Assembly (NCBI GenBank): GCA_964035015.1
Contig: OZ036002.1
Span: forward strand, 8,728,143 to 8,792,142
Direction of reading: 5' to 3'
Length of the DNA: 64,000 nucleotides
Source of the DNA: Corallium rubrum
Taxonomy: Eukaryota; Cnidaria; Anthozoa; Scleralcyonacea; Coralliidae
Both the position numbers and the translations under genes were made by a program. The stretch's first letter is position 1, and each line of letters opens with the position of its first letter. The notes under the pieces were generated by a model. It saw only the letters and a program-made list of their open reading frames with translations, was not told the origin of the DNA and did not search any database. Positions 16,624 to 28,600 of this stretch are shown here, piece after piece.

Positions 16624-19600
16624 CTGGTAATCCTGTGTATTTTTCTACTGATTTTACATAATTCTGGGCAGCTTCGGGCAAATCTTCGAACTTGCGAACA
16701 TTGCTGATATCGTCTGTCCAACCAGGTACAGTAACATACTGCACTTCGACTTCATTTAGAACTTCAAGGGACGCTGGAAAACACAGTGTGAATTTTATGA
16801 AATAAAAATAAAGTTGAAAATTGTGTTGTAAATATATAAGCATTTTCGGTAGAAAGAGTAGGCGTATTTGGAGCTCTAATGGAGGTCCTTATTCCTACTA
16901 TGCAAATACGTAAAAAAAAGACATTTAGGTACCTGGAAAGGATGGTAATATTTCTCCTCTGTACTTGTAATCGATTCCAATTTTCAAATCACCCAGGTTC
17001 GTCAGGATATCGAGTTTGGTGAGAGCTAAACTATTGGTGAAAAACTACCAATTTAATTAAAGGAAGGTGGAAAGGAAAGATGAAAGGAAAGTGAAGAAAA
17101 GTGATAAGGAAAGTGGAAAGGAAAGTGAAGGAAAGTGAAAAGGGATGTGGAAAGGAAAGGAAAAGGAAAGGAAAAGGAAAGGACAGATGAAACGACTGAT
17201 CATCCTAAGTAATTGCAATCTATGACTGAATTGCGGACGACGAAGGTCAACGTGGCCGAGTTGCCGTTAATCAGAGAACCAGAAGAAAATCTCTCAAAGC
17301 ATGAAAGACTAACTAAGCAACTCTAATATTTTCCCATACACTAGACCTCGTTCTTGGTTAACTAGTAATCTCGCAAAAAACAAGGGAGACCATTTGAATG
17401 TGAAGTGCATACCTTGTGTAGCCATTGATTCTATTCGAGTACTTTACAATAACCAGATCAAGCCAGCCACATCGACGTTTACGACCAGTCGTGACACCAA
17501 ACTCGCGCCCAACTTTTTGAAGATGTTCACCAATTTCCTACAAGACGATTAAATAACTATGTATAACTGCAGCTATAAATTTCGCAGCAAATCCAAGAAA
17601 GAACAATTCGTCCAAACAAATCACAAAAGCAACAGCTACTATATTACAATCTCAAACTCATTAATAATTCATGAAGAGAACACAAAGAAAATCAGTACTG
17701 TGTCTGTGGTTTGAATATCGGAAGAAGAAATTACATAAATTAAGCAAACTTTCATCTTGATTTTCTCTTGAAATACTGATTTGTTTGAGGTGCTATATCA
17801 TACACTTGGAGGAGTGTTTCATCAGCAAATCCAAACACCTTGAAGTCTGTTCAAAAAACTCGGCTGCGCCTCGGTTTTCAACAAACGTCTCGGTGCACTG
17901 CAAAAAATCCTGAGTATAATCAACTCAAAATATTGAGTAAAACAATGCACCCACAGTGACACATTATAAGGAGTTAAACTAACTCATATAGTATGAGTAA
18001 AACATACTCAGTTTTATGAGTGAATTTACTCAAAAATTGAGTAAAAGCTACTCAAATAACACGAACCACATTGACTCAATATTTTGAGTAAAATAAGGAA
18101 TTACTCAAATATTGAGTAAAAATACTCAAATTGTGAGTAAATATTACTCAAAAATCGAGTTCCAGTTACTCAGCTAAAATGCACCCACAGTGACTCCTTA
18201 TTTTGAGTAAAACAAGGAATTACTCAAATATTGAGTAAATATTACTCCAAAATGGAGTTCCAGTTACTCAGCTAAAAAGTATAAATGGCCTCGTGGTTTC
18301 GATGAGAAATGTCGTGCCATGTATTGAAAAAGGGGGCCTGAGAACTAGGCTGTTTACAGAGTGTACAAGTGTCAAGTACAGTCTACTAAATAACAACTTA
18401 ACAAGTATGAAATCGGTTTGAAACCAAGGCTTAAAGTGCTGGTTGATGAAAATCATGGATGTACGGATGTTTTACAAAATACGAAAATATAGACATGCCT
18501 GTCTACAGATCGGTAGGTTGATGCTTTAAAGTTGTTTAAACCTTATATAACTTTAATACGTAACTTTAATACGTGTAATTAAATGATTTAAAATTACTTT
18601 TAATATTTTCATGCATTCTGTAATCTGTATTGACAAAATCAAGTTCCCAATTTGACAGTATAAAGTTATTAAATCCCTTAATTAAACTCTGTACATGTAG
18701 ATGTAAATCACAGAGTTGTGGTCAAATCCTTTTGCCAAATCTAACAGCATTGTCATTAAAACTAATGTCTCAATCAATTCCAAGCATGACCATTTCCCCT
18801 GGGGATTTGACGGGCATATTTGCAATACTCTAACGCAAAAATGTGGGTCACCATGGGGTCACAGCATAGCTGTACAAAATCCCCACAGAGGGGTCTTGAA
18901 ATTGATGCAAATGCCCCACCCATGGCAATTTAAAGAAGCAGATGTTTATATTGTCAGACAGCTGAAGTGGCCGTGACCAACCATATTTATTTATTAAACA
19001 TAAACATATATTTATAAAATAAAGGTTAAAAACTACTTTCAAACGTCTCAACTAAGTTGTCGAAGCCTTTTTCCCAAATAGATTTACAGTACTTACTTTT
19101 GCCAGGTTACTTTTCAAGAAAATAACAGGAAAGTATATATATACTATTTAGGTACTTCAACAAATTCCCCACCATGGGGACAACCTGCAGAGGCAAATGC
19201 CTGACCCTGGGAACAGGTGAATCATCAAATGCCTGTCAAATGCTGGGGGAGGGGGGGGGGGCATGGTCATGCTTGGAATTGATTGAGAAATAACTTAAAG
19301 TCCTATTAAGTTTTAGCTAATATCAGCACATAAGTTCAGTTCATTCATCAGGGTAATGATAGAAGCTGGCAACTTCTTGCCATCCAAAATCTGTAGAACA
19401 CACTTTTGTAAGAATAAACAAAAATTATTAAGTGGACCGGAATATTTAAACATAAAAACATAGTTGGCGGCCATGAAGCCAATGGTTGCTGCAACAAGCC
19501 CTCCATCCACTTCACACAAAACCAGGTTCTCTGCAATTATGGCAGCCTTAGCAGATTTGTCCAAGTCACCTTTGATGAAAATTTTTGGAAACATTTCTGT

Positions 19601-25600: not shown

Positions 25601-28600
25601 TCAAAAACGTTTTGTTGGAATTAACGCAAAGCGTTTATAACTTTTTAGAAACGGAGACCTATATAAATACCTATATATGTTTGTGGTCACGTGTATATGG
25701 ATTCACACTGCTGAACTACCAGGTTAATATTGCAGTATATTTTTCATGTAAATTAAAAATGTTGATACTGAATTAAAACATTGAATTATCATTAAATAAT
25801 TAAAAAGAAAAATGACGAACGATACAAATGCACTGTTGAAAAGTATTCTGGTACTTGTATATATAGTACGGTATGTGTATATATAGTGTAACCAGCCATT
25901 AAAGAAGAATTACAGTAATCTGATAACTAATTCTTTGAACGTTTTCATGGCGATAAAGTAATATAAATAAGTTTTGTGGAAACACCACGTAAACTATTTC
26001 TTTGCTATTTCTTAACTATTTCTTTTCTTTTTCTTTTTTTTCGGAGAACATTCTTGATTTTGTTTTCTAATTAATAAAATTAACGTGATACGCCATTGTA
26101 TTCTTACGTGATTTAATTGATCAGTTGCTTAGTTTATAAATGACGTGAGCCAACAACTTGTTGTCATTGCTCTGATGAAGGCCTGAGTCAACAGGCCGAA
26201 AGCTTAGCAAAGAAATAGTTTACGTGGTGTTTCCACAAAACTTATTTATAATCTGATAACTGTAAATTCCAACACCTTGTCAATATTTAGTAATTTTATT
26301 TTAATACTTATAGTTGTATAGACTTTTAATAAAAGATTTTTTTGCTGCCATGGGAAATTTAAAAAAAATAATTATTATTTCGATGTACTGTCATAGTTTG
26401 TTTATATTTGCCATTATCGATTTACTCAAATCACCGATTAGTTTTAAACACTCTAATTTCACTTTAGCTGTATCTCCTGAAAAGATTGCACGACCATGGG
26501 TATAGAAAAATTCCAATTCCTGCATGCTCAAAGTAATTGTACTCAATTTTTCGAGTAAGGTGTCAGGTTTACTCAAAAAAATTCCATTATTGATTTACTC
26601 AAGACGATGAGTAGTGGTTAACTCAAAAATTTGAGTTTGTCATCCAAATGAAGTTTACTCGAGTTATTGAGTTGGTTGCACTAGTACTCAAAATATGAGT
26701 AAAACTCGAAGTTTACTCCAAAAAATGAGTTGCGGGTATTTACTCAATCGTTTGAGTAAAACAAAATTGTGCAATTACTCAAGGAAGAGTAAAGTTTACT
26801 CTGCTCTTTGAGTAACAATTACTCAACTTGCTTTTTACTCAAAACAATGAGTAATTTTTTACTCATAAGACTGAGTAGGAATATTTTAACTCATGTTAAG
26901 AGTAAATTGTACTCAAAATTATGAGTAATGCATTTGGATTACTCGAAATGTGAGTTAGATTTACTCAAACACGAAAATGCATTTTTTGCAGTGTGTTTGG
27001 ATATCCTGATGAAACACTCCTCCTCGTGTATGATATATTACGTTAAAATGGAAATGCCTTCCCACTTCTTCTTCTCTAGTTTGTCGTGTATTACTGTATT
27101 TCTGTAGCCGCTACTGAAGCGTGTGAAATTTTTTTTGTCGAAAAATGTGAATGAAAAGTATAATTTAGATTTCATGGAATTTAATCATAATAATAAGGAA
27201 TGTTTCTCTCAAATCGATACCAACAAATAAAAATCAAGAATAAGCGATTTTCATCGCTAGATTTTTCTCACGTTTCAGTAGCGGCTACAGAAATACAGTA
27301 AGCTGAATAGTTATAGTTATAGTGTATACTGTATACTGTATAGCTCAGTAGTATATTGTATATAGGTCTTCGTTTCAGCCCGTTTATGCGTGCCAAAACA
27401 CCGTATGTATACTTTTGTTCTTTTAGGTGTTTACAGTATCCTGTGATTTTTGCTGTAATTTGTTACTCATAGGAATAATATATAACCTGCGAATAATTTG
27501 TTGTTGGCCTTGTGGTTAGTTATCATGACTGCTTTTTATTGTAAATACAGTATTTTCCCAAACGTGCATCATGTGATTAGGCTCTCTATCGTTTTAATAA
27601 AATGCTGTTTAGTATGCTCTCTTAATCCATATCTTGGTCTTTCAAGATGTTCGTCTTTGGATTGTGTTTTATCTTATACTGTTTAGTATAGATATCCTGT
27701 AACTTTCACTTAAGATGTCGTTTTAGCGTAAGGTCCGCGGTTGATCCCGGCATCACGCCAGAGTATTGCGGTTCGGGGCACCCCCAATGACCCCCCCCCC
27801 TCCCCCCCTCAACGCTATGAATATCAACAAACGGTGCTTTTCGGCACAGCAGGTAAGCAGGGCATGCATGCACCAATTTTAACCATTTCACAACATTAAT
27901 GGTTGTACGGCAGTTGCTTAATAAGCGTCGTACGGCAGTAGCTTAAGAATTTATGCCAGTTGTGCGGTAGTTGCTTAAAATTTAAGCATGTCACGGCAGT
28001 TTCTTAGAATTTAAGAATGCTAGGCAGTTGCTTAAAATTTAAGCATTGTGAGATAGTTGCTTAAAAGTTAAGCATGTCACGGCAGTTGCTTAAAATTTAA
28101 GCACTCTACAGCAGTTGCTTAAAATTTAAGCATTGTGCGTTATTTGCTTAATATTTAAGCAGTTGCTTAAATTTTAAGCATTGTCCGGCAGTTGCATAAA
28201 ATTTAAGCACTCTACAGCAGTTGCTTAAAATTTAAGCATTGTGCGGCAGTTGCTTAATATTAAGCATTACAAGTGCGATAGTTGCTTAACATTTAACGGC
28301 AGTTGCTTAAAATTTAAGCACTGCAAGGTTTTTCATGTGCTTAAAATTTAAGCATTTCAGGGCAGTTTCGTGCCTAAAATTTAAGAATTGCGCGACGTTT
28401 GTGTACAATTTAGGTGCAATTTTGAACAGTTTATTGCACTAAAAACGTGGAATTTCGTGTAAAGTCTCAAATGCTCCGGATAGTCTCACTTCCAAATGGA
28501 TTCACCTAGTAATACACAACAAACTACAAAAGCAGAAGTGGAAAGGTATTTCTATTTTGACTGTAAAGTTTCAGGTGTTTTTGCTGTAGGGGGGCACGGA

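Follow-up and report, generated by a model that had tools for sequence, protein, structure and literature searches.

In this study, we analyzed a 64,000-nucleotide stretch of Corallium rubrum DNA (positions 8,728,143 to 8,792,142 of contig OZ036002.1; this whole stretch is hereafter named the window), which contains a 9.1-kb insertion at positions 17896-26993. This unit is a recently active cut-and-paste element of the CACTA group, its movement being known from sequence footprints, i.e. insertions, duplications and empty sites. We are fairly confident that it derives, as a non-autonomous form, from an animal cut-and-paste transposon of the CACTA/EnSpm type (CMC clade) with two genes, one for the transposase and one for a SAMD3-like protein, the latter being a putative accessory factor. 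The name “SAMD3-like” is an automatic annotation, known here from similarity to coral proteins so named in NCBI. Presented below are the ends and copies of the element, a fuller relative containing both genes, and the genome-wide proximity of these two genes.

Ends, target site and copies of the element

The element is bounded by 13-bp inverted ends, CACTGCAAAAAAT, which match perfectly and are of the CAC...GTG type, as for CACTA/EnSpm elements (CMC clade). CACTA/EnSpm elements typically have a short motif repeated in arrays near each end and a target-site duplication of 2-3 bp; such arrays are present here, together with a 2-bp duplication. The repeated motif is a palindrome of 15-17 bp, ACTCA-N5-7-TGAGT with some variation, and a count of ACTC-N-GAGT gives 11 units on the left and 11 on the right. 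At the left end, 12 ACTCA are found in 395 bp, for 0.64 expected, and at the right end 13 in 473 bp, for 0.76 expected, the expectations being taken from simulated sequence of which the dinucleotide make-up was kept. The half-site is 17-19 times commoner in the terminal arrays than in this simulation, and its density in the element interior is 1.8 per kb. The mirrored arrays proposed in a preliminary description of this DNA, made from the sequence alone, are therefore real, as are the exact borders of a single inserted unit, which are supported by the paired ends, the TG duplication and near-identical copies elsewhere.

The same description had noted an older MITE (miniature inverted-repeat transposable element), split at both borders. 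Its inverted arms (44 bp, 91% identical) indeed lie one on each flank, and uninterrupted copies exist elsewhere: the flanks, joined without the element and with a single TG, align across the junction at 92-96% identity to 40 scored MITE copies, out of 2135 first-look candidates, the junction being read base by base in L043 only. There, an ungapped alignment gives the empty site as CTCGGTGTTTGG, exactly the sequence predicted in that description. By these figures (2135 first-look candidates, 40 scored), the MITE family split by the element is apparently very abundant in the genome.

Three minus-strand frames match Adenylsucc_synt (E 7.7e-13, 6.3e-14 and 9.9e-18). As they flank both sides of the element, the latter sits within the adenylosuccinate synthetase (ADSS) gene. 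The initial placement in an ADSS intron is thus retained for the gene; for the intron itself, we infer it, and exons for profile positions 34-278 were not located.

In the 474-Mb genome, the left end was found at 40 places and the right end at 39; these counts are lower bounds, and some left ends are partial matches. A correctly oriented right end lies at most 40 kb away from 30 of the 40 left ends, the spans being 7.2-16.2 kb for 28 pairs, 22.2 kb for one, and 35.4 kb for a last, doubtful one. The right end assigned to the left end at C1:1607984 more probably belongs to C1:1603284. The termini hence recur as pairs; two arrays occurring independently and never around the SAMD3-like gene, which would have refuted the preliminary description, were not what was observed. 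Full-length, one-piece matches to the window unit (~9.1 kb) were obtained for three copies, at 99.67-99.82% identity. We examined 21 copies, i.e. 20 retrieved ones and that of the window. Identical 2-bp flanks (TA, TG, CA, GA or AA) border 18 of the 19 copies read at both ends, the exception being L024 (TA/CA); the right end of L018 and L021 was not read. A left flank is common to L021 and L022, so that one of them is a local duplication. All 21 copies enclose SAM exons, the window copy and L023 (see below) included. Transib and hAT elements, the target-site duplications of which are 5 bp and 8 bp, respectively, were rejected on account of the 2-bp duplications seen here.

SAM and transposase genes in a fuller relative

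One relative, L023 (extended by L030 and L031), has the same ends as the window element, a TA duplication and a size of 22,238 bp. On its minus strand, nine exons (E7 being tentative) are predicted for a SAM gene, and exons 1 and 2 match SAM_1 (PF00536) with E 1.6e-9. Exons E5-E9 share 48% identity over 98% of the length with the Montipora capricornis “SAMD3-like” protein P0002, and 47% over 100% with the Pocillopora protein P0006. On the plus strand, divergent from the SAM gene, transposase exons (13557-19515) are colinear with members of a protein family described below, and their catalytic and Cys/His residues are present. By these exons and residues, L023 has a transposase of the CACTA/EnSpm type (CMC clade); the window copy does not. 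Between SAM exons 2 and 3, also on the minus strand, lies a protein-kinase frame of 382 residues (E 9.7e-24; L023 9224-10000 and L030 1-369). Because the Montipora foliosa protein P0010 fuses SAM, kinase start and SAMD3-like body (E2, kinase start and E3-E6, in the same order as in L023), this frame possibly serves the SAM gene as an alternative exon. To the right of the L023 element, the flank (L031) contains frames that seem to resemble Maverick/adintovirus capsid and ATPase genes, and the element is apparently inserted in a remnant of that kind.

Compared with L023, the window copy keeps E1, part of E2, E8 and E9; E3-E7 are missing, and a satellite and a (TA)n tract are found in their place. 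L023 has a shorter array of related satellite units, located in the interval from SAM exon E2 to the kinase frame. The N-terminal SAM domain is recognized not only in L023 but also in the window relic, where exons 1 and 2 joined score 24.2 bits with PF00536 (cut-off 23). The ATG preceding E1 is 2 nt out of the SAM frame and leads to a stop after 12 codons. Among the 20 non-L023 copies, 19 have the same four SAM exons (L021 having only E8 and E9), the frame-shifted start is also found in 19, and the E8 donor is lost in all 10 that are readable by pattern. The ratio of nonsynonymous to synonymous substitution rates (dN/dS) between L023 and the window is 0.36-0.46 for E9. The SAM gene of the window copy probably makes nothing functional.

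As for the transposase, four frames of 17896-26993 are without Pfam match, and no match to the L023 transposase exon used genome-wide was found there. Judging from these contents, the window copy is a non-autonomous derivative, devoid of transposase and of the middle of the SAM gene. Such an absence is expected of a non-autonomous copy, which is classified by its ends and its full relative, and since the 9.1-kb family lacks the transposase gene, it would have been moved in trans. The initial reading was of a multi-exon SAMD3-like gene and a satellite array carried instead of a transposase. Both components are indeed present, and the profile search of the interior then suggested found no transposase, but the gene is an incomplete relic, and the relative L023 has both genes.

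Between the right arrays of the window element and of L023, identity is 90% for motif positions and 63% for the others, a difference reached by 0 of 376 circular mask shifts, in an alignment that itself leans on the motifs. As motif positions are kept above other positions, the subterminal palindromes look functional.

The association of the two genes extends beyond L023. Its middle SAM exon was found at 21 loci genome-wide (23 matches collapsed) and its transposase exon at 106 places (109 matches collapsed). For 15 of the 21 SAM loci, a transposase place was found within 30 kb, to be compared with 0.28 expected by a uniform-density estimate. Nine of these pairs are divergent, as in L023; in the other six, both members share a strand. 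Five of these six, 3.3-8 kb apart, belong to a second lineage, represented by L040, in which the SAM and transposase genes stand side by side in tandem, with a gene order and an exon structure that differ from those of the L023 lineage; the sixth pair (C50) is doubtful. When the L040 SAMD3-like body was used as the query, seven loci of the L040 lineage were detected, six of them beside a transposase match (C81 being the exception), and six loci of the first lineage were recovered, L023 included (E 1.1e-5 to 9.4e-4). Two pairs of metagenome proteins, P0012/P0133 and P0014/P0137, come each from contigs equal in size (5668 and 6892, respectively), a hint of the same gene arrangement elsewhere.

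The protein family with which the transposase exons of L023 are colinear has 750 members; those that bear names are animal, and the names reach fish, echinoderms, arthropods and nemerteans. D145, D235, C256 and C259 are present in 49 of 49 sequences, and H465/H466/H470 and E490 in 48 of 49, with one gap. This D, D, C(2)C, H(3-4)H, E signature, with its Cys and His residues between the second D and the last E, is of the EnSpm/RAG1 type, according to the motif definition in the excerpted text of PMC12730594, and it is preceded by N-terminal C2H2 finger(s). The structural model of the L040 transposase predicts a RAG1-like RNase H core and a BAH-like C-terminal domain, i.e. an RNase H-like transposase fold. 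Matches to Pfam Transposase_21 are weak (21 of 49 at E ≤ 0.5, the best at 3e-5). In viral contigs, 23 pattern matches to the transposase family and 2 to the L040 SAM body were obtained, none of which was confirmed.

The transposase exon of L023, compared with those of C1:68778055 and C1:68796939, has a dN/dS of 0.11. For SAM exon E5, identity between L023 and C1:68778055 is 74% at the protein level and 69.5% at the DNA level, and synonymous divergence is saturated. Both observations fit purifying selection.

Weight of the evidence and rival explanations

How could such a unit work? Transposase supplied in trans would cut at the CAC..GTG ends, and the palindromes would be binding sites for an element protein, either the zinc fingers of the transposase or the SAMD3-like protein. 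By analogy with TnpA, which stands beside TnpD in maize, the SAMD3-like protein would act as an accessory factor and multimerise via its SAM domain. SAM domains commonly polymerise, and because palindromic sites suit a dimer or polymer, the SAMD3-like protein is a plausible binder and bridging factor; the transposase zinc fingers are an equally possible binder of the palindromes. We somewhat favour an element-encoded accessory factor as the role of the SAMD3-like protein, and its more specific role in bridging the ends seems to us less likely than not. A bolder version, which we regard as possible but doubtful, is that the SAMD3-like protein is the required partner of the RAG1-like transposase, that SAM polymers on the ACTCA/TGAGT palindromes pair the ends, that an alternatively spliced SAM-kinase form regulates the process, and that most cnidarian, possibly fish, “SAMD3-like” genes are transposon genes. 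More modestly, the data suggest that some coral “SAMD3-like” genes belong to jumping genes and not to the host.

Several observations weigh against a two-gene transposon with a SAMD3-like factor. Both terminal repeats were verified around the SAM-transposase pair in L023 only, of the 15 pairs, which slightly lowered our overall confidence, and a comparison of coordinates makes L023 the sole one of the 30 paired elements to hold a transposase match. Six of the 21 SAM loci are without transposase within 30 kb, and most of the 106 transposase places are, at the sensitivity used, without SAM locus nearby. The C50 pair consists of a 42%-identical transposase match 22 kb away on the same strand, a more similar one (68%) being 78 kb off, and no CACTGCAAA end was found in 8 kb of L040. 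An intact SAM gene in cis is not needed for the spread of the 9.1-kb family. The L040 protein alone matches Transposase_21 with E 0.17, and the 60 matches shown, of 84 between the family profile and PDB sequences, are all zinc-finger-type chains. Finally, the weak model of the SAMD3-like protein (predicted local distance difference test score, pLDDT, 61) gave 0 of 67 Foldseek matches at E ≤ 0.001. A profile search of PDB sequences with this protein gave 0 matches at E ≤ 1, and assignment to a known fold was rejected at the thresholds used.

The preliminary description had left open whether the SAM gene was a passenger or an element-encoded factor. Capture of a host gene by a CACTA element, which would since have carried it as mere cargo without role in transposition, appears rather unlikely to us. 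Such capture would agree with the broken SAM gene of the most-spread copies, with gene carriage by EnSpm elements, e.g. of TET/JBP genes in fungi (excerpt of PMC12730594), and with the kinase frame inside the L023 SAM gene, which indicates that these elements can hold unrelated domains. But SAM and transposase genes adjoin in two different lineages, with differing gene order and exon structure, which makes the passenger less likely than a standing second gene of the element, and the protein identity of exon E5 exceeds its DNA identity. Chance enclosure of a host SAMD3-like gene between two independently inserted terminal repeats would account for the unpaired ends (10 of 40 left, 9 of 39 right); it is practically inconceivable, being refuted by the recurrence of the same interior and ends, at 99.7-99.8% identity, in unrelated sites with 2-bp duplications, and it is further contradicted by the empty MITE sites.

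Another possible source of the mobilising enzyme is the 16.2-kb copy L028. Its ends are those of the window element, and it is longer by a 7.7-kb piece that contains a CIDE-N frame (PF02017, E 2.4e-10) and a frame of 1106 residues; the PHD finger at the C-terminus of the latter scores just under the Pfam cut-off. This PHD-finger protein was first taken as the transposase. However, inverted ends of its own, TGCACCTATCAATG..., and a flanking duplication of 3-4 bp border the extra piece, which thus looks like a different, nested element; moreover, its protein has a tblastn match in no other retrieved locus compared. We therefore rejected this candidate, which we judge very improbable. The piece (L028 with L029, oriented 1307-9080, C8 copy) probably represents another DNA transposon that is nested here.

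Positions of the features are collected in Table 1. The tRNA-Ala(AGC) match at 23318-23391 is a mobile tRNA-like sequence or a tRNA-derived repeat, and the stretch at 25962-26250 with 46-bp arms is a nested MITE of a second type. Outside the element, an open frame of 1071 residues (10393-13605, minus strand) has the endonuclease and reverse transcriptase domains of a non-LTR (long terminal repeat) retrotransposon.

Table 1. Features of the element and of its surroundings, in window positions
Feature	Position	Strand	Basis or remark
Whole inserted element, non-autonomous CACTA/EnSpm-type, 9,098 bp	17896..26993	.	Paired termini, 2-bp duplication, near-identical copies elsewhere
Left terminal inverted repeat CACTGCAAAAAAT	17896..17908	+	
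Right terminal inverted repeat, exact reverse complement of CACTGCAAAAAAT	26981..26993	-	
Target-site duplication TG, left copy	17894..17895	.	Flank reading and empty site in L043
Target-site duplication TG, right copy	26994..26995	.	Flank reading and empty site in L043
Left subterminal array, 11 palindromic ACTCA/TGAGT units	17911..18270	.	
Right subterminal array, 11 palindromic ACTCA/TGAGT units	26541..26967	.	
Interrupted MITE, left part	17794..17895	.	
Interrupted MITE, right part	26996..27037	.	
SAM relic, last exon E9 and stop codon	19313..19638	-	93% amino-acid identity to L023 E9; exon start by eye
SAM relic, exon E8; splice donor GT gone via 2-bp deletion relative to L023	20122..20214	-	
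(TA)51 tract near site of missing L023-gene exons E3-E7	20377..20478	.	
Satellite array, 487-bp unit x 5.5	20482..23157	.	
tRNA-Ala(AGC)-like sequence inside element	23318..23391	+	Rfam model match, 53.2 bits
SAM relic, exon E2, second half of SAM domain; 3' part of exon diverged	23918..24031	-	
SAM relic, exon E1, first half of SAM domain; upstream ATG out of frame by 2 nt	25215..25265	-	
~320-bp stretch with 46-bp perfect inverted arms	25928..26249 (arms 25962-26250, 197 nt apart)	.	Absent from L014-L020, L022, L025-L027
Host ADSS exon frame, profile 279-324; nearest recognized ADSS exon, low side of element	17361..17537	-	
Host ADSS exon frame, profile 1-33; opposite side of element	36991..37236	-	

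Comparison with known systems

A link between SAMD3-like genes and animal CACTA elements would explain the multiplication of this family in cnidarian annotations, and would warn against counting such genes as host genes. The consequence for annotation is immediate, because matching coral proteins are already named “SAMD3-like” in NCBI. If true, the pair would be an animal counterpart of maize TnpA/TnpD with a RAG1-type transposase, and the young copies (99.7-99.8% identity, empty sites) offer a practical system for testing the need for a second protein. In the literature, taken as open-licence full texts without Repbase reports and screened by title or abstract start, we found neither a SAMD3 or SAM domain in EnSpm/CACTA elements nor a BAH domain in a CACTA transposase.

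Among animal elements, those of the TRC type are reported to make 2-bp duplications, which in SmTRC1 of Schistosoma concern 7 of 14 copies (excerpted text of PMC1636069). As far as this excerpt goes, SmTRC1 resembles the present element in these duplications, in a Transposase_21-related DDE enzyme with more than one protein product, and in copies lying in other repeats, which give empty-site paralogues (PMC1636069). It differs in that the second gene is here a SAMD3-like SAM-domain protein, with a kinase frame inside in L023, and that C2H2 finger(s) are found at the N-terminus of the transposase and, in the L040 model, a putative BAH-like domain at its C-terminus. With RAG1/RAG2, ProtoRAG and Transib, the shared characters are the RAG1-like fold, here predicted, and the D, D, C(2)C, H(3-4)H, E layout; the duplications are here of 2 bp and not 5 bp, and the second gene is SAMD3-like, not RAG2-like.

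Maize En/Spm elements have short subterminal motif arrays and internal-deletion derivatives, as here. Their TnpA and TnpD come from one spliced unit, whereas two genes are found here, divergent in the first lineage and tandem in the second. The two-protein logic itself is alike, in view of the TNPA and TNPD roles given in the excerpt of PMC1636069. Accessory genes in EnSpm elements are already known: the fungal TET/JBP elements, in the part of PMC12730594 available, likewise have an accessory gene beside the transposase, but theirs is a dioxygenase, in a fungal host.

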